In this document: positions 1 to 13,822 of the stretch, piece after piece
Layout: each line of letters begins with the position of its first letter
Numbering within the stretch: position 1 is the first letter of the stretch
Source: Nitrososphaeria archaeon
Lineage (GTDB): Archaea > Thermoproteota > Nitrososphaeria > Nitrososphaerales > JACAEJ01
Reading direction: 5' to 3'
DNA length: 33,972 nucleotides
Assembly (NCBI GenBank): GCA_029775875.1
Contig: JARVKD010000011.1
Location: 1-33,972 of the forward strand
Made by a program: the position numbers and the translations under genes
Notes under the pieces: model-generated
Seen by the model: only the letters and a program-made list of their open reading frames with translations
What the model was told of the DNA's origin: nothing
Databases searched by the model: none

Positions 1-77
1 GCCCCTATATTTATGGCTGTAGCATCGAGCAACCCTAAAGTTGGCTTTAGCTTAGATCGAACGACTTCTTCATTCAT
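1..77 (-). CDS. APC-family amino acid permease, N-terminal fragment truncated by window edge
   Basis: Minus-strand translation from the ATG at 77: MNEEVVRSKLKPTLGLLDATAINIG...; the 'LK..LGLLDATAINIGA' start is typical of APC permeases. Shorter than the ORF-track cutoff. Confidence 0.6.
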   Translation of the reverse strand, partial: MNEEVVRSKLKPTLGLLDATAINIG

Positions 78-234
78 CCTTTCGAATCAATTTAATTTGA
101 TCTTATTATCTTTTGTTCAGAAATATTTCCTAAGCAAATTCATAATTTTGTGCATTTACCTACTCTCAAAGTAACTTACCCCTAGACCTATATACTTGAA
201 GCTTTTAACCTAATGATCACTTCGGTGCTTATAA

Positions 235-444
235 ATGGACCGTGTCAAACGCATTTCAATGCAGATATTAGAGAAACATGGGAATTTATTCACTGATGAC
301 TTTGAAAAGAACAAATCCATCTTAAGCGAAGTAGCTATAATTAGGTCTAAGCAATTGAGGAATGAGATAGCTGGATATATAACAGACTTTGTCAAGAAGG
401 AAGGTAAGTCCATTTCTGGAGAAGCATCTGCAGAAAAAAGCTAA
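235..444 (+). CDS. rps17e: 30S ribosomal protein eS17 (S17e)
   Basis: 69 aa; DRVKRISMQILEKHGNLFTDDFEKNK..LSEVAIIRSKQLRNEIAGYIT matches the eS17 pattern (F..DFE.NK...E.a.I.SK.LRN.IAGY.T). Confidence 0.9.
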   Translation: MDRVKRISMQILEKHGNLFTDDFEKNKSILSEVAIIRSKQLRNEIAGYITDFVKKEGKSISGEASAEKS

Positions 445-1348: not shown

Positions 1349-2392
1349 TCAAGCAAGCCAGCATCCAGGATCTGAGGCTAGCATGTTACCTGTTTCTTCG
1401 TAGGCTCTGCCTCGGCATCCGACGCAAATATCTTTATAAGAGCATCTTCCACACTCGCCCTCTAAAAGGCTTCTCAATCGAAGTTTTGATAAGATCGGTG
1501 ATTCATTCCAAATATTAATGACACTTTTCTCTCTAATATTGCCCAATCTTATCTGTAGAAGCATACATGGTATTACGTCACCGTTTGGAAGTATAGTGAT
1601 ATAACCATTAGGTATCCCAGCAGCGCATCCCCGATCATAATACGGGATTCTTCGCAGTACGTGGGGTGGGAAATGTTTTGGCTGAATTCTTCTCTCCTTG
1701 AGTATTAAAGGATACATTGGGCACCCTGGTACTCTAATCACTATTGGGCATTCTTTTTGGGCTTCAGCCAACCATTCCATAATACTTTTTCTTTCATCTT
1801 TACTCAAAATTTCTTCAGGGCAATTTTGTTTAACTCTTGGAACTTGTACGAGGTCGAAGAACTCCGCAGCACTTGCCCCACTCTCAACCGCTAATCTGAG
1901 CATGTCTGGAATTTCGGGGAGAGACTGCTTTCTAATAACCATACCAAACTGAAAAGGCAGACCTACCTCTTTACATGCCTTGATTCCTTGCATAGCTTTA
2001 TAAAAAGCTCCATCCTCACCACGGAATGAGTCATGAGTTTCGGGCTTGGCACCATCGATGGAGATTTGCACCATTTGAATGCCAGCATTCTTCATTCTAT
2101 TAGCCATCTCGATATCAATAAGAACCCCGTTACTTCCTACCACGGTTCTCATGCCCTTCTCTGAAGCATACTTAGCAATCTCGAAGAAGTCATCTCTACA
2201 GAGAGGCTCGCCACCATCAAAAATTAAAAGTTTTATACCCCATTTTGCAAGGTTATCTAAGAGCCCTTTTGCTTCTATTGTAGAAAGTTCATCATATGCC
2301 TGTGTATCCGTGGCATCGCTATAGCAATGCTTACATTTTAGATTACACTTTCTAGTGATAGAATATGAGACTAAATATGGAGGCGCTATCAC
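1349..2392 (-). CDS. Radical SAM/SPASM protein, AhbC/AhbD/NirJ-like
   Basis: CNLKCKHC radical SAM motif; C-terminal SPASM cysteines 'CGRCSYKDICVGCRGRAYEETGNMLASDPGCW' as in alternative heme-biosynthesis radical SAM enzymes. Confidence 0.8.
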   Translation of the reverse strand: MIAPPYLVSYSITRKCNLKCKHCYSDATDTQAYDELSTIEAKGLLDNLAKWGIKLLIFDGGEPLCRDDFFEIAKYASEKGMRTVVGSNGVLIDIEMANRMKNAGIQMVQISIDGAKPETHDSFRGEDGAFYKAMQGIKACKEVGLPFQFGMVIRKQSLPEIPDMLRLAVESGASAAEFFDLVQVPRVKQNCPEEILSKDERKSIMEWLAEAQKECPIVIRVPGCPMYPLILKERRIQPKHFPPHVLRRIPYYDRGCAAGIPNGYITILPNGDVIPCMLLQIRLGNIREKSVINIWNESPILSKLRLRSLLEGECGRCSYKDICVGCRGRAYEETGNMLASDPGCWLA

Positions 2393-2462
2393 AGTCCCAT
2401 CATCTATCTTCTATAATTTTTATCCTTTACTGAAGGCGAAGGTCGGTTAGAGAATTATATTA

Positions 2463-3749
2463 TTAAAGTTGCACCTCTGACTCCATCTCTTTAAGAAGCT
2501 CTTTCGCTCTGTCCATTCTAACTTTTCTTTCTTCTACCATCTTCGATGCTATCTTGTCTATCAAATCTCCTTTTGCACCTGCCATTATTGCAATATTTCT
2601 TGCATGAAGCTTCATATGCCCTCTCTGTATTCCTTCACTTACCAATGCTCTTAAGGCTGCAAAGTTCTGAGCAAGTCCAACTGAAGCCATGACCTCAGCA
2701 AGCTCCAAAGCACTTTTAACACCAAGAATCTTTACGCTTATCTTCGCTATAGGATGGACAGCGGTTGCTCCTCCCACTAGACCTACAGCTATAGGCAATT
2801 CTATAGTGCCTACTAAGTCTCCCTCTTCGTTCTTCTCCCAAGTTGTCAACGGGCTATAATGACCAGTCCTTGCAGCATAGGCGTGAGCCCCAGCTTCCAA
2901 AGCTCTAGTATCGTTACCAGTCGCTAACGCTACAGCTATGATTCCATTCATGATTCCTTTGTTATGAGTTGCGCATCTGTAAGGGTCTGCAGAAGCAAAG
3001 GCAAAGGCATTTACTATGCCATCTACTATTTCCTCTCCTCCAATAGCCTCCTTATCCATTACAACTTTTGCTCTAGCAAGCCTTTTTGTTGCAAGGTTTG
3101 AAATTATTCTTAAAAGTACTCTTCCTTTTGTTATCCTCTCTACTACTGGAGCTATTGCTTCTGCCATCGTATTCACCGCATTTGCACCCATGGCATCTCT
3201 ACAATCCACAAACAATTCTGTGATTACCATAGGTCCCTTGATGGTATCAATAACCTTCACATCTAGGTCCTTTGCTCCTCCTCCAAGAGATACCAGAATC
3301 GGGTCTTGATCATTGGCTTTAGCTATGATTTCATCCTTTGCCGATATTATGCTCATCTTTGCTCCGTAGGGATCTTTCACATCTATAACTTGTATTTGAC
3401 CTATCATTATAGGATTGGTGCAATGAGCAGAGAATCCTCCCTTTACTCTAGCCATCTTTGCTGCGTTGCTGGCAGCCGCAATCACTGAAGGTTCTTCTAT
3501 AGCCATGGGGATCAAGTAATCTTTTCCATTTATGAGAAAATTAACTGCAACTCCTAAAGGCACTGGAATGGCTCCTATAACATTCTCTACCATTCTATTT
3601 GCCAATTCTAGCTTTAAACCACCCATAGATTGAACCAAATTTACTTCATCATCGCTAAGCCCTGCAAATTCCTTTACTATCTTCATCCTATCCTCTGGAC
3701 TCAACTTATAAAAGCCAGAAATCTCAGATGTCTTGCTCATAAAGATCAT
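2463..3749 (-). CDS. mvaA: Hydroxymethylglutaryl-CoA reductase, class II (MvaA-type)
   Basis: ENVIGAIPVPLGVAVNFLINGKDYLIPMAIEEPSVIAAAS; DCRDAMGANAVNTMAEAIAP; DPYRCATHNKGIMNGI; GLVGGATAVHPIAK; matches the class II (Pseudomonas mevalonii-type) HMGR signature along its length. Confidence 0.93.
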   Translation of the reverse strand: MIFMSKTSEISGFYKLSPEDRMKIVKEFAGLSDDEVNLVQSMGGLKLELANRMVENVIGAIPVPLGVAVNFLINGKDYLIPMAIEEPSVIAAASNAAKMARVKGGFSAHCTNPIMIGQIQVIDVKDPYGAKMSIISAKDEIIAKANDQDPILVSLGGGAKDLDVKVIDTIKGPMVITELFVDCRDAMGANAVNTMAEAIAPVVERITKGRVLLRIISNLATKRLARAKVVMDKEAIGGEEIVDGIVNAFAFASADPYRCATHNKGIMNGIIAVALATGNDTRALEAGAHAYAARTGHYSPLTTWEKNEEGDLVGTIELPIAVGLVGGATAVHPIAKISVKILGVKSALELAEVMASVGLAQNFAALRALVSEGIQRGHMKLHARNIAIMAGAKGDLIDKIASKMVEERKVRMDRAKELLKEMESEVQL

Positions 3750-3974: not shown

Positions 3975-5168
3975 TTAAACAGGTTTCCAAGAACCTGCAT
4001 TATATTCATGCAAAATAGCCTCGTAGACTCCGATTGTCCATTCAGCTATCTTATCCCAGTTGTAGTTCCATAGGCATTTTTGATACGCATTGTTTACGAT
4101 CCAGTCTTTGAAGCCTACATCTCTTATTATCCTCAAAATACCCCAAGCCAGGGCTTCTGGATTGTTCGGAGGAACTTTTAGACCAGTGCCTTCATGATCC
4201 ACGATTTCGTCTAATCCTCCAATTGAGCTAGCAACTAATGGGCAATGGGCAGCCATGGCTTCTAATGCGACTATCCCAAAGGGTTCAAACCTTGAGGGAA
4301 CAATGGCTACGTCTGCCACACGGTACAACGCTCTTAGAGTCCAATCGTCTATATGTCCAGTGAAGAGTATCTTGTTGCCTAAACCATGATCTTTGGCCAG
4401 TCTTTGATACTCATCTCTCTGCGGACCCTCTCCAACCACAACTATCTTTGCGTTGACACCCTTACCCAAAATTATAGGAAGTGCTTTGATTAAAACATCC
4501 AAGCCCTTCTCTGGCACAAGCCTTCCAACGAATAAGAGGATTTTCTCTGATGCATGTGCAAACCTGTTCCTAATCTCCCAATAGTTAAAAACGAAGTTGA
4601 ACTTTGTTACATCTACTCCATTTGGTATTACACAAACTTTGTTTTCTGGGACTCGGAAACACCAAGAAACATGGTCTCGCATGTAGTATGAACATGTGAT
4701 TATTCGCCAAGACTCATAGCACAGCCAACTCTCGATTTCGTGGATGCAAGCTTGTAGATCGTTGTGAATTCCATTTCTCCTACCGTACTCTGTGCTGTGC
4801 ATAGTTGTGATTAGAGGTTTTCTGTATAGGTGCTTTAATCCAATTCCAGCAACTCCTGAGAGCCAATCATGAGCATGGATTACATCGACGCCTTTGATAA
4901 GGCTGATGAGATCGCAGCCCTTTCTTTCCATGTTCTTCTGCATGCGTAAGGCCCAACTGAGAAAAGAGTCTCCAGCTGCGTAGGCTTCGAACCTGTGCAC
5001 ATTTACGCCTTCCACAATTTCGTACTCTTTTGCGCCTGGAAAGTTACATGTCACTACGTGAATTTCAACTCCCCTACGGGTGAGAGCCCTAGACAGATCA
5101 AAAAGATGAGAAGCTAACCCTCCTATTATTCGAGGTGGGAACTCCCATGAGAGGTGGAGAACGCGCAT
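3975..5168 (-). CDS. GT4 family glycosyltransferase, glycogen-synthase-like (full length)
   Basis: N-term LHLSWEFPPRIIGGLASHLFDLSRAL; C-domain LLFVGRLVPEKGLDVL and EPFGIVALEAMAA (EX7E); C-term YNWDKIAEWTIGVYEAI...GSWKP. Confidence 0.9.
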   Translation of the reverse strand: MRVLHLSWEFPPRIIGGLASHLFDLSRALTRRGVEIHVVTCNFPGAKEYEIVEGVNVHRFEAYAAGDSFLSWALRMQKNMERKGCDLISLIKGVDVIHAHDWLSGVAGIGLKHLYRKPLITTMHSTEYGRRNGIHNDLQACIHEIESWLCYESWRIITCSYYMRDHVSWCFRVPENKVCVIPNGVDVTKFNFVFNYWEIRNRFAHASEKILLFVGRLVPEKGLDVLIKALPIILGKGVNAKIVVVGEGPQRDEYQRLAKDHGLGNKILFTGHIDDWTLRALYRVADVAIVPSRFEPFGIVALEAMAAHCPLVASSIGGLDEIVDHEGTGLKVPPNNPEALAWGILRIIRDVGFKDWIVNNAYQKCLWNYNWDKIAEWTIGVYEAILHEYNAGSWKPV

Positions 5169-5176
5169 TTAGATCA

Positions 5177-5818
5177 CTAAGCTTGTAAGGTTTCTTGAGC
5201 AACTCTCTGATAAACAGAAAACACTTCATCGACCCAGCCCTTGCCCACAGGCCACACTACGTCCATTTTTTTCCTATGACCATCACCATAATACCTCAAA
5301 ATCTCATTTTTCAGCCAATCTGTGTTAGTAATCACCTTGTTAGACTCCCATATTCCAGTGTCCTCGATCTCTTTTATGGCGATGCTGAGCGGACCGAAAC
5401 GGTTGTGAGACCGATGCCCCTCTATTGAGTGAAGGGTTAGGACAAAAGGAATATTAAAAGCATGTTTCAAACTGATCGCTGGAGAAATTGTAAGCCATTC
5501 ATGAGCATGTATGAGATCGATGCTTTTCTGATGCTGTTTGTAAAAGTAAACAATGTTTGAGGCTTCGTTTTCTATTTGCACGGATGCTGTCATAGCATAC
5601 GTTAGCACACTAGCCATTGGATGAGTTTTGACTGGGTTAGCGACTCTGTGGACATGGACGCCGTATACATCCTCAAATCCTGGCCGTAAATCATCTAAAA
5701 CCATAACCTCTACTTCGTTTTCGCGCTTCACGAGTTCATGGGCCAATGTGGAGACGTGGTCAGAGACGTTTCCTAAGCGTTTGGGCGGGTACTCCCATGT
5801 GAGGATTAGGACACGCAT
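5177..5818 (-). CDS. Standalone N-terminal half of a GT4 glycosyltransferase (no C-terminal donor-binding domain)
   Basis: 213 aa; MRVLILTWEYPPKRLGNVSDHVSTLAHELVKR and IDLIHAHEWLTISPAISLKHAFNIPFVLTLHS align with the N-domains of neighbouring GT4s; the ORF ends before any GRL..EKG or EPFG..ALEA motif. Confidence 0.85.
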   Translation of the reverse strand: MRVLILTWEYPPKRLGNVSDHVSTLAHELVKRENEVEVMVLDDLRPGFEDVYGVHVHRVANPVKTHPMASVLTYAMTASVQIENEASNIVYFYKQHQKSIDLIHAHEWLTISPAISLKHAFNIPFVLTLHSIEGHRSHNRFGPLSIAIKEIEDTGIWESNKVITNTDWLKNEILRYYGDGHRKKMDVVWPVGKGWVDEVFSVYQRVAQETLQA

Positions 5819-5843: not shown

Positions 5844-6032
5844 TCACGCTGGAGAGAAGTTCTCCTTAATTTGTAAATCTATCATGTTTAAGATATGATA
5901 TCTCAGTAGTTCATCCTCAAATTCTTGCCCTCTAATCCATCCGGTCTCTTCAGCTAGCTCTTTTGGCTTAGCCCTTTCCATTTCATAAATTATCTTTAAG
6001 ATTTTGATGTCGTCTTCTGTTAGTTGGGAAAT
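5844..6032 (-). CDS. Small HTH-like protein (62 aa), possible ATT start
   Basis: Minus-strand reading ISQLTEDDIKILKIIYEMERAKPKELAEETGWIRGQEFEDELLRYHILNMIDLQIKENFSPA*; ATT preceded by SD-like AAGGTGGTT. Alternative ATG start gives ~45 aa. Not in the ORF track. Confidence 0.5.
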   Translation of the reverse strand: MSQLTEDDIKILKIIYEMERAKPKELAEETGWIRGQEFEDELLRYHILNMIDLQIKENFSPA

Positions 6033-6107
6033 AGAACCACCTTACAATTGTTTTAAGTATATGCTTTTATTTTTAGCTTACTTAAACTTAAAGCAAGTGG
6101 TTAGATA

Positions 6108-7322
6108 GTGAAGCCAAAGCTTTATTTTGCAATAGTTTTGCACATGCATCAACCAAGATACAACTTTACTGGACCCACATACGAGTCTGAAATTGCCCGA
6201 GACGTTTTCAATCAAACCCTTCACCCTTACACGTATCCACCTGAGATCATCGAAAAATATGAGAATGCGAAAATAACCTTCAACTTTACAGGAAGTCTTA
6301 TTGAACAGTTGAACGAGCTTATGAAAGCTGACTTTGATCCGAGACTGAAAGGATTATGGGACAGATATCTAAAATCAAAGAAGCTGGAGAGAGTCGAGTT
6401 CACAGGTTGTGGTTACTTTCATCCTATATTTCCCCTAATACCAGAAGATGATCGTCGAAAACAGATTGAGATGCACCTTAAAATCTCTGAAGAGACTTTT
6501 GGGGCGAGACCTAAGGGCTTCTGGCTTCCAGAACTCGCCTTCAGCACTAGAGTTGTTCCTGTTCTGGCAGAGATGGGTCTCAAGTGGACCATCGTAGACG
6601 GTCCTCATATAGTAAATGCCAATAAAGACATGGATAGATTCGATCTTCTTTATCATCCCCACTACGTTGAGTATGAAGGGCACCAAATAATCGTAATTCC
6701 AAGAGACAGAGGTATTAGTAATGCACAACAAAGTGGTTATAATCCTATCTGGCTTAAAAACGAAATCGAAAATTCAATTCAGCCTCACAATGACGGGGAC
6801 TTCTTGCTGACGGTTGCTACAGACGGAGAAAACGGTTGGTTTCGCCATTCTGGTGCGAACGCTGGCTTTTGGGGCTGGTTCTTTGAACCTCTTGCATACT
6901 TGCTGGGTAAAGACCCTGATTTTAATTTCATTGAGCTAATTACTATTGATGAGTATCTTAAAGAACATCCTCCTCATGATACAGTTGTTGTTGAGGATGG
7001 AAGCTGGAATGTACCAGGAACTTTTGACGATGGAAGATTTCTAAAGTGGACTGAGGGAGAACACAGAGAAAAAACATGGACTCAAATTTTGGAAACCAGT
7101 AAGCTCCTTCACGAAGTTGATGAAAGAGTTAAGGCTTTAGCTAATAATTGCCCATTGGAGGCTGTGGAGGCTCTCCAACAAGCTTGGAGGTGGCTTCTTA
7201 TGGCTGAGGCAAGTGATAACTTCTGGTGGGGAAGTGAAGATTGGTTAAACCGATCAACGATCTGTTCTATTAAGGCGAGGGAAAAGATGAAGGAAGTATC
7301 AAGGCTTTGCCATTTTACGTAG
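6108..7322 (+). CDS. Glycoside hydrolase family 57
   Basis: GH57 motifs: HMHQPRY (motif 1), GFWLPELAFS (nucleophile region), TVATDGENGWF (acid region). GTG start. Confidence 0.9.
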   Translation: MKPKLYFAIVLHMHQPRYNFTGPTYESEIARDVFNQTLHPYTYPPEIIEKYENAKITFNFTGSLIEQLNELMKADFDPRLKGLWDRYLKSKKLERVEFTGCGYFHPIFPLIPEDDRRKQIEMHLKISEETFGARPKGFWLPELAFSTRVVPVLAEMGLKWTIVDGPHIVNANKDMDRFDLLYHPHYVEYEGHQIIVIPRDRGISNAQQSGYNPIWLKNEIENSIQPHNDGDFLLTVATDGENGWFRHSGANAGFWGWFFEPLAYLLGKDPDFNFIELITIDEYLKEHPPHDTVVVEDGSWNVPGTFDDGRFLKWTEGEHREKTWTQILETSKLLHEVDERVKALANNCPLEAVEALQQAWRWLLMAEASDNFWWGSEDWLNRSTICSIKAREKMKEVSRLCHFT

Positions 7323-8523
7323 GTTTCCAAGAACCATGCTGATACTCATCACATATCGATTGGTATAAAGCCTTAACCTTCTCTGCTATCTTGCTCCAGT
7401 TATACATTTCTCTAACTTTCCTGTCAGCGTTTGACCTGATCCATTCGGCATAAGATGGGTCGAGTAAGACTCTAGTTATACCCCATGCCAATGACTCTAC
7501 ATTATTTGGATATACTTTTACTCCTGTCTTGTCATGCTCAACTATTTCTGCTAGTCCTCCTGTGTCTGATACTACTACTGGAACCTTTGCTGCCATAGCT
7601 TCTAATGCGACTATTCCAAAAGGCTCATAAAGAGAAGGAACCACACAGACATCAGCGCATTGGTAAAGAAATCTTACGCTCTGCTCGTCTAGAAAACCAG
7701 TGAAAAAGATCTTGTGAGCCAACCTCATATTGTTAACTTGGACCTTAAGGAAGTCTTTCATCCCTCCCTCACCAACGATCACAAGTTTTGCGTTTACTCT
7801 AGCCAAAACCTTGGGCATGGCATTGATCAGCACATGAACTCCTTTTTCATTGACAAGACGTCCCACAAAGAGGATGATCTTTTCATCGGGCTCTGCAAAC
7901 TTGCTTCTAAACTCTTGCTTTTTGAACTCTTGCTTAAACACGTCTGCGTTGACACCGTTCGGAATCATTACCACCTTGTCTTCCGGCAGTCCAAATGCCC
8001 ACCTTGTATGAGAAACCATGTATTGACTGCAACACACAACCTTCCAAGCCTCATGTGCAAGCCATGCCTCTGTCTCATGGATCATCCTCTCATAATTTGT
8101 GTGAAGGCCGTTTCTTCTCCCTATTTCAGTGGAATGTATAGTAGCCAATAAAGGAATCCTAAAGATGTGTTTTAGTCCTATTGCAGCATTGGCTACGAGC
8201 CAGTCGTGAGCATGAATAAGATCAACTTTTCCATTTAAATTACTGATAATAGTCGCAGCTTCCTTTTGCATATTCACATTCATCAGATAGTCCCATGTGG
8301 CGAAGTCTGGAGAAGGAGTCTTGTATGAATCCACTCGAATAACATGGACACCATTCACTTCTTCGTATTCTGGTGCTCCTGGGAAGTCACAAGTCACTAC
8401 GTAAGTATCTACTCCCATGCGGGCTAAGTGACTGGACAAATTGTAGACATGAGGAGAAATTCCTCCAACTGTTCTAGGTGGGAACTCCCAAGAAAGCATT
8501 ATGACTCGAAGTTGACGGTTCAA
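7315..8523 (-). CDS. GT4 family glycosyltransferase, glycogen-synthase-like (full length)
   Basis: LSWEFPPRTVGGISPHVYNLSSHL; ILFVGRLVNEKGVHVLINAMPKV; EPFGIVALEAMAAKVPVVVSDTGGLAEIVEH; C-term YNWSKIAEKVKALYQ...GSWKP. Confidence 0.92.
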   Translation of the reverse strand: MNRQLRVIMLSWEFPPRTVGGISPHVYNLSSHLARMGVDTYVVTCDFPGAPEYEEVNGVHVIRVDSYKTPSPDFATWDYLMNVNMQKEAATIISNLNGKVDLIHAHDWLVANAAIGLKHIFRIPLLATIHSTEIGRRNGLHTNYERMIHETEAWLAHEAWKVVCCSQYMVSHTRWAFGLPEDKVVMIPNGVNADVFKQEFKKQEFRSKFAEPDEKIILFVGRLVNEKGVHVLINAMPKVLARVNAKLVIVGEGGMKDFLKVQVNNMRLAHKIFFTGFLDEQSVRFLYQCADVCVVPSLYEPFGIVALEAMAAKVPVVVSDTGGLAEIVEHDKTGVKVYPNNVESLAWGITRVLLDPSYAEWIRSNADRKVREMYNWSKIAEKVKALYQSICDEYQHGSWKPT

Positions 8524-8546: not shown

Positions 8547-9179
8547 TTAAGATGCTAGATTTGGGGAGATGCCTAGCGCTTTTCTATAGGCTATAAGAAT
8601 CTCGTCGATCCAGGCTGGCGAATGGGGCGAGACAACCTCTATCTTTTCAAGGGGCGTTTTATAGATTCGTCTCACCTCTTGTTTCATCCATTCTGATTTG
8701 ACCAAAACTCTCTCAGCTTCATCGACGCCCAACAGTTCTAGACCTTTTATTGAGAGGTTCAAAGGAGCACTAGAGCCATGAGATCGATGATCTTCAAGAC
8801 TGTCTATAGAGAAGACAAACGGGATTCCTAACCCTCTCTTTAAGCTCACTGCAGCTGGAGTGAAATGCCAATCACATACATCGATAAGATCAACTTCACG
8901 TTTGGTCAAGTAAAAAATATCGGCAGCAACCCGTTCAACCTCCTGATTTAGGTTGAGGACCCATGTGAGAATGTTTATCTGGGATTTAACAGGATTTGAA
9001 ACTCTGTAAACTTTGACCCCGTCTACTCCTTGATGATAGCCTATCCAAGAGTCATGATATGTAACAACGTATGTGTCAACACTCTTTTTCACGAGGTCAA
9101 TTGCAAGTTTGTTCACATAATGAGAAAGCTGTCCAACAATTCTCGGTGGAAACTCCCATGTGAAGATTATGACGCGCAA
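8547..9179 (-). CDS. Standalone N-terminal half of a GT4 glycosyltransferase (paralog of 5177..5818)
   Basis: 210 aa; MRVIIFTWEFPPRIVGQLSHYVNKLAIDLVKK aligned to GT4 N-domains; shares DHRSH...APLN..IK..E with the other half-GT (GHRSH...GPLSIAIKEIE); no C-domain. Confidence 0.85.
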   Translation of the reverse strand: MRVIIFTWEFPPRIVGQLSHYVNKLAIDLVKKSVDTYVVTYHDSWIGYHQGVDGVKVYRVSNPVKSQINILTWVLNLNQEVERVAADIFYLTKREVDLIDVCDWHFTPAAVSLKRGLGIPFVFSIDSLEDHRSHGSSAPLNLSIKGLELLGVDEAERVLVKSEWMKQEVRRIYKTPLEKIEVVSPHSPAWIDEILIAYRKALGISPNLAS

Positions 9180-9192
9180 GGTAAAACCTCAA

Positions 9193-9447
9193 TCAAGTGA
9201 AAAGTGAGCAAACCCTAATTATTCCATTGCCTGTCAAATAGTGTCTTATGTTTCCGTCATTATCAGTGAGGCTTATGGTGTATCCTTCAGACTGATACTT
9301 ATTCATGATTTGATTGACTTCATTTACGTCGGTTTGAAGAATCTGCGCTAATTCGTCAGATTTCTTCGCTTTCTCTCGACTCGTAGCACCTAGATTGTGC
9401 AAGATTAGAAGGATTCTCTCAGAAAGTCGATAATCTTTCTCACTCAA
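9193..9447 (-). CDS. Winged-helix (wHTH) protein homologous to the C-terminal domain of the GT4 at 9553..11037
   Basis: 84 aa; ...KSDELAQILQTDVNEVNQIMNKYQSEGYTISLTDNDGNIRHYLTGNGIIRVCSLFT versus ...RSAEELSSILRIKVKEILRLLQKLISSGYIETSIDHLKRLRYHLTKSGIIKACSLFS. TTG start. Confidence 0.8.
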   Translation of the reverse strand: MSEKDYRLSERILLILHNLGATSREKAKKSDELAQILQTDVNEVNQIMNKYQSEGYTISLTDNDGNIRHYLTGNGIIRVCSLFT

Positions 9448-9552: not shown

Positions 9553-11037
9553 ATGGTCAAAGATGACTTTAGCGTTCTGATGCTCTCTTGGGAGTTCCCA
9601 CCTAGAATCGTAGGCGGAATATCATCTCACGTTAACGATCTATCCTTAGCCTTAGCGAAGAAAGGTATAAGCGTACACGTAGTCACTTGTGACTTCCCAG
9701 GAGCACCAGAATACGAGGAAATTCAGGGGGTCTGCGTATACCGCTTTGATTCATACAAAATCCCTGCCTACAGCTTTCTCTCATGGGTCCTCTCAATGAA
9801 TCAAAAAATGATTCAGAGAGCCATGGAAGTAATAGATGCACATTATGGAAAAGTTGATCTTATTCATGCTCACGACTGGCTCGTTGCTGATGCAGCGATT
9901 AGGTTGAAGGACTTTTATGGAAAACCTTTGGTGTCTACCATGCATTCTACAGAGGCTGGTCGAAGAGGTGGAATCCGCAACGACTACCAAATGACCATAA
10001 ACGAAGTGGAGAGACGCCTTGTCAATGAAAGCTCAAAAGTAATCTGTTGTAGCAACTATATGGCAAATCAGATTTCTGAGACATTTAACTTTCCAAGAGA
10101 AAAAATCTCCGTGATTCGAAATGGAGTAAACGTTTCTAAATTTAACATCAAAATTGATGCCCAAGCTGTTAAGAGGCGATATGCCGAGCCTAATGAAAAG
10201 ATGGTTGTATATGTTGGAAGGCTGGTTCACGAGAAGGGAGTTCATGTACTGATTGGCGCAGTTCCGAAGGTGTTAGATGTATTGCCGAACGTGAAGTTTG
10301 TGATCGTTGGTGAGGGAGGGATGAAAGAGTATCTGTTAAAAGAGGCTTGGGACTTCGGTGTTTCTGATCACGTTTTCTTTACTGGTTTTGTGGACGAGAG
10401 CATGCTGGTATCGCTTTACAAAGCGAGTGACGTTGCGGTTTTTCCTTCTCTTTATGAGCCCTTCGGTATTACAGCATTAGAAGCCATGGCAGCAAAGGTT
10501 CCAGTAGTAGTATCAGATACAGGAGGTTTATCTGAAATCGTTGAGCATGACAAGACAGGAGTAAAAGTATATCCAGACAACTCTGATTCAGTGGCTTGGG
10601 GAATTCTAAAGGTGCTTAAAGATCAAGCCTTTGCAAACAAGATTCGAGAAAATGCCTATCAAAATGTTGTTGAAAACTATAATTGGGACAAAATCGCAGA
10701 GGAAACAATAAAGGTGTATCGTGAAGGTGTAACTTTGGCTCAACCGAGAATAGTTGCAAAGTATAGGGTAGAGTTTCCTTCTTTTAAATTTGATAGTTAT
10801 CCCGATGAGTTTAGAGTTCTCCTTTCCCTATACACCCTTGGAGCCATTGATAGCGAACATGCAAGGTCGGCTGAGGAACTGTCTAGTATACTGAGAATAA
10901 AGGTTAAGGAAATCCTAAGATTACTTCAAAAACTAATAAGCTCTGGATATATCGAGACTTCTATAGATCACTTGAAAAGACTGAGGTATCATCTTACCAA
11001 ATCTGGGATAATAAAAGCATGTTCACTTTTTTCTTGA
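9553..11037 (+). CDS. GT4 glycogen-synthase-like glycosyltransferase fused to a C-terminal winged-helix domain
   Basis: Complete GT4 (LSWEFPPRIVGGISSHV; VYVGRLVHEKGVHVL; EPFGITALEAMAAKVPVVVSDTGGLSEIVEH; YNWDKIAEETIKVY) followed by a ~100 aa extension homologous to 9193..9447. Confidence 0.9.
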   Translation: MVKDDFSVLMLSWEFPPRIVGGISSHVNDLSLALAKKGISVHVVTCDFPGAPEYEEIQGVCVYRFDSYKIPAYSFLSWVLSMNQKMIQRAMEVIDAHYGKVDLIHAHDWLVADAAIRLKDFYGKPLVSTMHSTEAGRRGGIRNDYQMTINEVERRLVNESSKVICCSNYMANQISETFNFPREKISVIRNGVNVSKFNIKIDAQAVKRRYAEPNEKMVVYVGRLVHEKGVHVLIGAVPKVLDVLPNVKFVIVGEGGMKEYLLKEAWDFGVSDHVFFTGFVDESMLVSLYKASDVAVFPSLYEPFGITALEAMAAKVPVVVSDTGGLSEIVEHDKTGVKVYPDNSDSVAWGILKVLKDQAFANKIRENAYQNVVENYNWDKIAEETIKVYREGVTLAQPRIVAKYRVEFPSFKFDSYPDEFRVLLSLYTLGAIDSEHARSAEELSSILRIKVKEILRLLQKLISSGYIETSIDHLKRLRYHLTKSGIIKACSLFS

Positions 11038-11040
11038 TAG

Positions 11041-12597
11041 TCAAAAACATTGCATTACTGTTTGAGCTAACTTTTTAATCTCTGTAAAACGATGATTGGA
11101 AACCTGAAACAGATCTTGTCTAAGTTTCTCTCCTCGAACTCCTGAAACTTGAACCTCCTTAAACTTCTGAGCTAACTTTTCATCTCTCAGTGAGAAAGCT
11201 GCCCACTTTTCAAAGTCTCCTCTTCGATTGTGAAACTCAATAGACTTTATGTCGACCCTTTGAAGAGCATCACTCATTCCTGCAAGACTCCAGACCTTGA
11301 CTCCAGTGAAGTCTTTCTCCTCTGAGCCCATGTAAAAGAGGAAAGGCTCATTCGCAGCAATAATATATGATCTTACCCTTGACTCGAAATCGAGGATGGC
11401 GCCTTGGGCAGTGACAAAAGCATCTATTGGAGAGTCGTAAGGGTTAAAATAGGTGTGAACTTCGCCTGGCGCCCCACCAGCCGTAAACATATAGTAAAGA
11501 TGATCGCTGGCTAGAAGATATCTCCAGATCTTTAGAAACTCTTCATCTTTGGATTCCTTGACTAGTGGCTCTAGTTCCTTTGTTATAGTGTAGTACGCCC
11601 ACTGCATTGTATTTCCAAGCCAGCAACTTGTGTCTCGTTCAATGTCAGCCCAAGAGACCGTGCCACCAAGTTCAGGGACATCAACTTCTCCAACAACCTT
11701 ATACTTGCTCAGAACCTCTGAGGGTGTTGCCATTTGGAGATTTTCCCACTTCAGAATTTCCTTTGGTAAGTATCTTAAGAAATCATGTATCCCAGTTTCT
11801 GGCCAATGATGTTCGCCAAAGGTCTCATAGTCTGGAAAGATGTTGATGCACTGACCTTGAGTTGCTGCCAACCAAGAGGCATATTTTTCAGCCGTCAGCG
11901 GCCACTCACTCCACTGTCTATCTGAGAATCTAAAACCGATGTCATCTGTGAGTTTATAGTTTCTTAAGAGAACCTTGATCTTCTCACAATTCTTTGCTTT
12001 GTACACGTAGTTAGGTGACCTGCCCTTAAGGACTCTTTCAACTCCTTCGGTGAAGATTCCAATGTAGCCCATTTTCTCCACGACCTTGGCTATAGCGTTA
12101 TTGTAAAGGAGTTCTGTATTCTCAAAAGTTAGTGGTTCAGCGTTAAGAAGGTCTTTCATTACTTGTCTGTGCATCCTGATCTGTTCGACGAATTCATCTC
12201 TGACTGGGTATAATCCAGTTAGAGAATGGTAGTAGGTCTGGTCTAGAAACTCAACACATCTTGTTTCGCTCAGTTGTTTAAACGACTCCAAAAGATCTGG
12301 ACTGTAAGCTTCACACTGTTCAAGAAAAATTCCAGATATACTGAAGGAAATCTTAACCTTTTTCTTTTCTCTTTTGAACTCATCGATAAGTTGAAGCAAG
12401 ATGTTGTTGGACGGGAAGTAGCATTTCTTGCAAGCCCTCTCAAATATCTCCCTATTCTTGGCTTTGTCAAAATAAAAATCAGACAATTCTCCTTTACGTA
12501 AGCGGCGGAACATGTTCCTCTCCCAGAAGAAACCTTTCTTGATTCTGATGGGCTGATGAACCTCGAATACAAAAACCACGTCAGTCAATCCTAGCAC
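11041..12597 (-). CDS. Glycoside hydrolase family 57 (alpha-amylase-like)
   Basis: VFVFEVHQPIRIKKGFFWERNMF; TFENTELLYNNAIAKVVEKMGY; NIFPDYETFGEHHWPETGI; archaeal GH57 alpha-amylase-type motifs. Confidence 0.9.
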   Translation of the reverse strand: MLGLTDVVFVFEVHQPIRIKKGFFWERNMFRRLRKGELSDFYFDKAKNREIFERACKKCYFPSNNILLQLIDEFKREKKKVKISFSISGIFLEQCEAYSPDLLESFKQLSETRCVEFLDQTYYHSLTGLYPVRDEFVEQIRMHRQVMKDLLNAEPLTFENTELLYNNAIAKVVEKMGYIGIFTEGVERVLKGRSPNYVYKAKNCEKIKVLLRNYKLTDDIGFRFSDRQWSEWPLTAEKYASWLAATQGQCINIFPDYETFGEHHWPETGIHDFLRYLPKEILKWENLQMATPSEVLSKYKVVGEVDVPELGGTVSWADIERDTSCWLGNTMQWAYYTITKELEPLVKESKDEEFLKIWRYLLASDHLYYMFTAGGAPGEVHTYFNPYDSPIDAFVTAQGAILDFESRVRSYIIAANEPFLFYMGSEEKDFTGVKVWSLAGMSDALQRVDIKSIEFHNRRGDFEKWAAFSLRDEKLAQKFKEVQVSGVRGEKLRQDLFQVSNHRFTEIKKLAQTVMQCF

Positions 12598-12745: not shown

Positions 12746-13822
12746 CTAAAGGTATCCAAGTTCCTTTGTGGTTATTACAAACATAGAATGGCTCCAACAA
12801 AGAGGGCTGACTGAAACTTGGAGGTCGTTCTCAAAGATTTGTTCTGGAATGAATTTTTGTACTCTGTCCAACACCCAGTTGTAGTATTGAAGAGCTTTCT
12901 CCTTGTGGCCTAATCTTGCATAGTATATGCTCAGCCAAAAGTTGAGGAGGGGCCAGGCTCCAGCGCCCTTCTTTCTATGCATGGTTTTGTAGATCCAACC
13001 ATCATACTCATCATGTTCATATCTATGAAGCCCTCCGTTCACTATAAGTTTCCTCTCCATCTCCTCTACACTTGCAACGATTCTTTTATCATTGGGTGGA
13101 AACACCTCAAAGGGATAGACTAGTCCTAGCATCGAAGCGTCTATTCTCCTGTCACTGAGCTTTCCATAACTCCTAAAGAAATAATTTTCATAATGTTTCT
13201 CAAGTCTTTCCCGCATCTGCTTGGCTACATTCATCCATTTTTCGTTAGGCATGAAAATGTTCGCGCATTCTAGTCCCTTTATGCATGCAGCGAGGGAATA
13301 AGTGAAGTTTTCTTCTAAGTCGGGAAAGGTGAACCTTTCTTCCCAGAGGTCATTGGTGACCTCATCGAAACAGTTTCCTTTCCATTTTTTGCAGATTCCA
13401 TCAGCCGCCATGCAAATGATTTTCTCATATTTTGATGCCTTTTTCAAACCATCTTTGAAGTGATGCCAAATAGCCCACAAAAAGGACCCTGTCTGATCTG
13501 GCTGAAAACTTCCAGATGCCTTTAAACCGTTAACAAAATAATTTTGATAAAAAACTCCATCATCTTGAAAATCCTCTGCCCTATTAATACACCAATCAAA
13601 AAACCTTTCTTGAATGTTTTTGATTCCAAGAATGTCTGCAGCCGCACAGGCAAAGGAGGCATCCCTAGGCCAAACGTAAGTATAGTATTTTGCGTCTTTT
13701 GCGAAATATTCTTTGGAGCAGTTAGCAGCCACAATAGCGCCATTTTCCAAGGCACAGTCCAAGATCACTCGTCTGCTGGTTTCTATCATTCTCCTAACTT
13801 TCATTTTCAAGTTATCACTCAC
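12746..13822 (-). CDS. GH15 family glucoamylase-like protein (catalytic domain only)
   Basis: YVWPRDASFACAAADILGI; NDLWEERF; GAWPLLNFWLSIYYARLG; PEQIFENDLQVSVSPLCWSHSMFV; 358 aa, no N-terminal beta domain. Confidence 0.88.
   Translation of the reverse strand: MSDNLKMKVRRMIETSRRVILDCALENGAIVAANCSKEYFAKDAKYYTYVWPRDASFACAAADILGIKNIQERFFDWCINRAEDFQDDGVFYQNYFVNGLKASGSFQPDQTGSFLWAIWHHFKDGLKKASKYEKIICMAADGICKKWKGNCFDEVTNDLWEERFTFPDLEENFTYSLAACIKGLECANIFMPNEKWMNVAKQMRERLEKHYENYFFRSYGKLSDRRIDASMLGLVYPFEVFPPNDKRIVASVEEMERKLIVNGGLHRYEHDEYDGWIYKTMHRKKGAGAWPLLNFWLSIYYARLGHKEKALQYYNWVLDRVQKFIPEQIFENDLQVSVSPLCWSHSMFVITTKELGYL

Follow-up and report, generated by a model that had tools for sequence, protein, structure and literature searches.

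The window, that is, the whole stretch of DNA from a Nitrososphaeria archaeon which was analyzed here (33,972 nucleotides), carries on its complementary strand an intact frame, complement(5177..5818), running from ATG to TAG. It specifies a protein of 213 amino acids made up of the acceptor domain of a GT-B glycosyltransferase and its crossover helix, without the donor domain, which we refer to as half-GT #1. The complete glycosyltransferase GT4a (3975..5168, complementary strand), its partner, starts 8 nt past the stop codon. A paralog, half-GT #2 (8547..9179, complementary strand, 210 amino acids), is 38% identical to half-GT #1 and nearer to the family consensus. It is followed after 23 nt by its own complete partner, GT4b (7315..8523, complementary strand), an ortholog of the half-GT partners in other genomes, and stands behind a gene for an 84-residue winged-helix (wHTH) mini-protein (9193..9447, complementary strand), the first gene of a wHTH - half-GT - GT4 module. 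The third complete enzyme, GT4c (9553..11037, forward strand), has no half-GT, and its C-terminal ~75-95 residues are a fused winged-helix domain.

Next to GT4c lies a gene for a GH57 protein with a DUF5752 domain (11041..12597, complementary strand), orthologs of which are found upstream of the module at other loci (25 of 29 in the phylum sample described below). In family f25 the gene order is GH57(+DUF5752) - wHTH - half-GT - GT4. The neighbours in the window are alpha-glucan enzymes, namely two GH57 proteins, one GH15 protein and a phosphorylase-like protein. The genome (assembly 94% complete) has no copy of the GT5 synthase GlgA over the NCBIfam cut-off, which makes the GT4s candidate glucan synthases. 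PADLOC gave no match to the feature.

Half-GT #1 was identified as possessing three N-domain families, PF13439 [E 5e-16, 59.6 bits against a cut-off of 28.5], PF13579 and PF08323. As to whether the domain is of the GT4 or the GT5 kind, PF13439 (59.6 bits) and PF08323 (46.6 bits) both score above their cut-offs. Neither of the C-domain families PF00534 and PF13692 was matched in Pfam; PF00534 is hit by all three complete GT4s in the window, in addition to the N-domain families. Pfam, AlphaFold and PDB matches agree that the acceptor Rossmann domain of GT-B enzymes is present; it takes up residues 1-188 (5255..5818, complementary strand; PF13439 at 20-188). The donor domain with its E-x7-E and GR..K motifs is absent. 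An earlier note, made from the sequence, had taken the gene for the N-domain of a GT4 whose donor loop is degraded and whose donor-binding domain is missing, and on both counts our results agree with it, the second Gly of the loop being lost and the protein ending at 213 residues. The motifs are likewise as it described them: LTWEYPPKRLGNVSDH, the replaced motif LHSIEGHRSH, and the tail WVDEVFSVYQRV. By the features tested half-GT #1 lies outside the catalytic GT4 enzymes. A frameshift concealing a C-domain, which the note had named as a finding that would overturn its reading, was rejected, since the 8 nt before the complete GT4a leave no room for such a domain; no remnant of one is left between the two genes.

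The AlphaFold2 model of half-GT #1, based on 16 sequences, has a pLDDT of 89.3 and a pTM of 0.88, and ends in a helix comprising residues 195-212 (5183..5236, complementary strand; mean pLDDT about 94 in the block 201-210) which includes the invariant Tyr203. Its best structural match in the PDB is MshA [3C48, 3C4Q; Z 25.0, 2.3 Å, 198 residues aligned, model 1..210 on chain 1..409], a GT4 enzyme which, unlike half-GT #1, is complete; it functions in mycothiol synthesis and shares 19% identity with our protein. GlgM [6TVP] is the best PDB match by sequence and the third by structure [Z 23.6, 2.4 Å, 187 residues, model 1..208 on 1..387]. It has the same N-domain and crossover helix, but is complete and includes the donor domain; the half-GT lacks this domain and has lost the donor residues. 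Sucrose-phosphate synthase (SPS) is also among the best structural matches; the most telling match is an engineered Thermosynechococcus A-domain of SPS with its a6 helix [6LDQ; Z 21.4, 2.4 Å, 178 residues]. Because the alignments begin at the N-terminus and end at the C-terminus of enzymes of 390-400 residues, the tail occupies the position of the C-terminal crossover helix, and helix 195-212 aligns with the last helix of both the full-length GT-B enzymes and 6LDQ. The structure prediction and comparison with GT-B enzymes which the earlier note had proposed confirmed the fold, and of the two identities it had offered for the tail, linker or crossover helix, the AlphaFold model and the PDB alignment favour the helix. 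As modelled, the half-GT is an N-domain plus crossover helix from which the C-domain has been excised.

In 6LDQ, SPS residues 27-220 are joined to residues 406-426; the A-domain crystallized with the a6 helix only, and a version without the helix did not (PMC7264703). The construct resembles the half-GT in that its N-domain is joined straight to the crossover helix, and differs in being a laboratory product derived from an active enzyme. The half-GT is a natural gene in which a GT-B enzyme has been cut to one domain and its crossover helix, the same arrangement that crystallographers built by hand.

When half-GT #1 was used as the query in a scan of genome contigs, full GT4s were returned. A search of 60 relatives revealed further frames of 206-223 amino acids adjoining full GT4s, and an 11-member profile detected halves in a number of families within the window's order and class. 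Among 398 genomes drawn from the window's phylum, 39 carry halves at E <= 1e-47, as open frames of 206-257 amino acids. In family f25 they are present in 74 of 90 genomes (47 of 53 among those of good quality). A diverged wHTH - half-GT - GT4 run occurs at two of the loci returned by the scan with half-GT #1, L046 and L047 (Candidatus Methanomethylicota WYZ-LMO10 and Methanomethyliaceae SKW203). No halves were found at E <= 1e-44, a threshold which more distant forms would escape, in 121 bacterial genomes of the phylum of L049 or in 199 of the phylum of L038. Fusions of a half-GT with a GT4 were not seen in the match lists. In the tree the 26 halves sampled group together (99/97 support, all 200 bootstrap trees), and by this phylogeny the half-GTs are a single protein family with a single origin.

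The orthologs which the earlier note had asked for thus exist at the level of the family, which is found in many genomes. Within the main group of the tree no single member has diverged further than half-GT #1 (end branch 1.07); its best identity to other members is 43%, and the genomes searched yielded no close ortholog, so that conservation is shown for the family and not for this copy. It retains His130 and His106, and at these two positions looks less altered than most members.

Residues were counted over 44 half-GT/GT4 pairs. The GG loop has lost its second Gly, Gly17, in every one of the halves and retains it in all 44 partners. His130, which in our alignment corresponds to His109 of GlgM, a residue contacting the donor (PMC7137382), is kept in 10 halves, half-GT #1 among them, and in every partner. 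The PNG loop is lost in the halves and present in 44/44 partners. In place of these the halves have residues of their own: N61 (39 of 44), P62 (41), V63 (40), H66 (38), R84 (41), Y91 (42), D104 (38), L132 (42), H135 (38), S137 (38) and G155 (41). The acceptor-side residues E133 and R136, shared with the full enzymes, are kept in 43/44 halves. The two motifs whose conservation the earlier note had proposed to check are conserved in part. In HRSH the H-R-S portion is conserved (38, 43 and 38 of 44) and the second H is not (12/44); in the W[VI]DE tail W195 is conserved (37/44), together with Y203 (44/44), and V-D-E is not.

The half-GT immediately precedes a complete GT4 on its own strand in each of the 44 distinct pairs examined. 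Most of the frames overlap or abut. Measured from the starts of the longest ORFs, the spacing ranges from -148 to +23 nt; an overlap of 4 nt is the commonest value, which suggests translational coupling. Duplicates occur as pairs: the window's own genome, G593 and G798 each have two halves and two partners, and each half is adjacent to its partner. Across the 90 genomes of f25, 72 have both a half-GT and a GT4b ortholog, 14 have neither and four are discordant (Fisher p 1.5e-12 with the four counted as such); in all four the missing gene falls at a contig end. The tree of the halves broadly mirrors that of the partners, with the exception of the G004-G006 set, the partners of which are placed elsewhere among the GT4s.

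We propose, with a probability of roughly 0.7, that the half-GT is a non-catalytic subunit of the GT4 encoded immediately downstream; it most resembles a non-catalytic subunit or a pseudoenzyme. The acceptor domain of a GT-B enzyme, its donor domain removed and its crossover helix kept, would fold alone and bind its own GT4. This would plausibly occur through helices of the N-domain, in the manner of the GlgM homodimer, where three N-domain helices form the interface (PMC7137382). The product would be a pseudo-dimer with one active site, in which the free N-domain replaces one GlgM-like protomer. More tentatively, the exposed acceptor wall (S-L-E-x-H-R-S and NPV..H) might hold or orient an alpha-glucan chain, or prime its synthesis, a role suggested by the residue pattern, the gene neighbourhood and the precedent of plant SS5. 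Adjacency and co-loss can also result from membership of one operon, without the proteins touching. The divergence of half-GT #1, its want of a close ortholog and of the canonical wHTH, and the high dN/dS of half-GT #2 given below likewise count against the proposal.

The same acceptor wall permits another explanation, in which the half-GT is an independent glucan-binding or priming protein, a primer holder or granule nucleator, which forms no stable complex with the GT4. E133 and R136 of the wall are kept in nearly all halves, and the gene is set among GH57, GH15 and phosphorylase genes. Plant SS5 offers a parallel: it is a non-catalytic relative of glucan synthases, found beside an active paralog, which functions in granule initiation (PMC11772324, PMC8494965), and in Arabidopsis it is truncated (PMC6013586). 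SS5 is, however, a eukaryotic GT5 without a tight gene pair, and that of maize keeps a GT1-like region. The strict one-to-one pairing, the paired duplication and the translational overlap go beyond what an independent binder would need, and we regard this explanation as rather unlikely.

The wHTH gene lies directly upstream of 51 of the 53 halves which could be tested. Its product is 84-86 amino acids long across members, has a conserved C-terminus (YLTGxGIIxVCSLFT) and has no match above cut-off in Pfam or NCBIfam. It is modelled as a winged helix (pLDDT 92.8) with AspA, TubR and MarR as the nearest folds. Residues 421-494 of GT4c match the wHTH HMM (E 4e-18), so that here the domain is fused to the C-terminus of a glycosyltransferase, which suggests that the wHTH works in contact with GT4s. 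At L059-L063, where lone GT4s occur without a half-GT, a wHTH gene stands directly downstream rather than upstream (L059 9133-9384, L061 9302-9550, L062 10596-10964, L063 11407-11643); its presence beside such GT4s ties the wHTH to the GT4 and not to the half. The wHTH is probably the third member of the half-GT/GT4 module.

Two halves lack a canonical wHTH gene, and half-GT #1 is among them. Upstream of it we noted a weak candidate, a winged-helix-like frame of 62 amino acids (5844..6032, complementary strand). It has an apparent ATT start after GGTGG and none of the usual start codons before residue 18, and from its first ATG only 45 amino acids are left. Its similarity to HTH_24 (E 0.006) and MarR (E 0.01) is weak, both being below the cut-offs. 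In G593 the second of the two half-GT/GT4 pairs (L117, 1476-2111) is without a wHTH gene, as half-GT #1 is.

The nearly constant presence of the wHTH before the halves, its AspA/TubR/MarR-like fold and its fusion to GT4c could also mean that the half-GT is a regulatory subunit acting with the wHTH, sensing a sugar or nucleotide and controlling the GT4 or the transcription of the cluster. Such a role is compatible with its being a GT4 subunit. Since the wHTH, a putative DNA-binding protein, also accompanies GT4s which have no half-GT, we think it unlikely that regulation is the function of the half. As a tentative extension of the subunit proposal, one we hold possible but doubtful, the GT4, the half-GT as acceptor subunit and the wHTH might together form an obligate hetero-oligomeric alpha-glucan synthase of archaea which replaces the classical GT5 enzyme GlgA. 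If so, the acceptor subunit would grip the chain, providing processivity or priming, and the wHTH would tie the synthase to regulation or to a scaffold.

In Alg13/Alg14 a GT-B fold is split over two polypeptides, each supplying the domain that the other is missing. A comparable division, in which the half-GT would supply an acceptor site in trans and switch acceptor specificity, might be imagined from its retention of the acceptor side of the cleft next to a gene encoding a donor domain. The partner, however, is already complete: every N- and C-domain motif checked is intact in 44/44 partners, E-x7-E and GR..KG included, so that each of them owns a complete N-domain. In SPS, moreover, the A and B domains, made separately and mixed, were inactive (PMC7264703). 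A split active site therefore appears very improbable.

In measurable pairs of f25 halves dN/dS is 0.08-0.12, about twice that of the partners, and the f25 halves are under purifying selection. Between half-GT #2 and its counterpart in the sister genome the value is 0.51, at a dS of only 0.065 and hence few synonymous changes, versus 0.06 for the partner, which indicates that this lineage may evolve under looser constraint. A decaying duplicate, a pseudogene, or an assembly or frameshift artefact would agree with this last value, with the lost donor loop and fast evolution, and with the long branch of half-GT #1, but scarcely with at least 44 distinct pairs whose frames are all intact, the wide occurrence and dN/dS of about 0.1 in f25, the half-specific residues, and the lack of any C-domain remnant downstream. 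The earlier note had argued from the intact frame against simple decay, and the family-level orthologs with their conserved half-specific residues bear this out. A chance ORF or pseudogene is ruled out for the family by the pairs, the residues and the distribution.

What GT4 enzymes do in the glycogen metabolism of archaea still needs clarifying, according to a 2024 review (PMC11046441), and the half-GT/GT4 module offers a concrete and widely conserved candidate. In the open-access papers we found no description of a pseudoenzyme or N-domain-only partner of a GT-B enzyme. Annotation pipelines would label the half-GTs as glycosyltransferases, though binding of a donor sugar is not expected of them.

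Several further observations concern the neighbouring genes. At its 5' end the phosphorylase-like ORF shares 13544-13822 with the divergently oriented GH15 gene, and its true start is therefore probably further downstream. In the sister genome G001 (L051) the phosphorylase-like gene is broken into three frames (6064-7919) and GT4c into two (1911-3436); these breaks are either real frameshifts or assembly errors. Elsewhere in the window, between 20601 and 26057, several ORFs resemble by eye what we take to be genes of the tetrahydromethanopterin C1 pathway.
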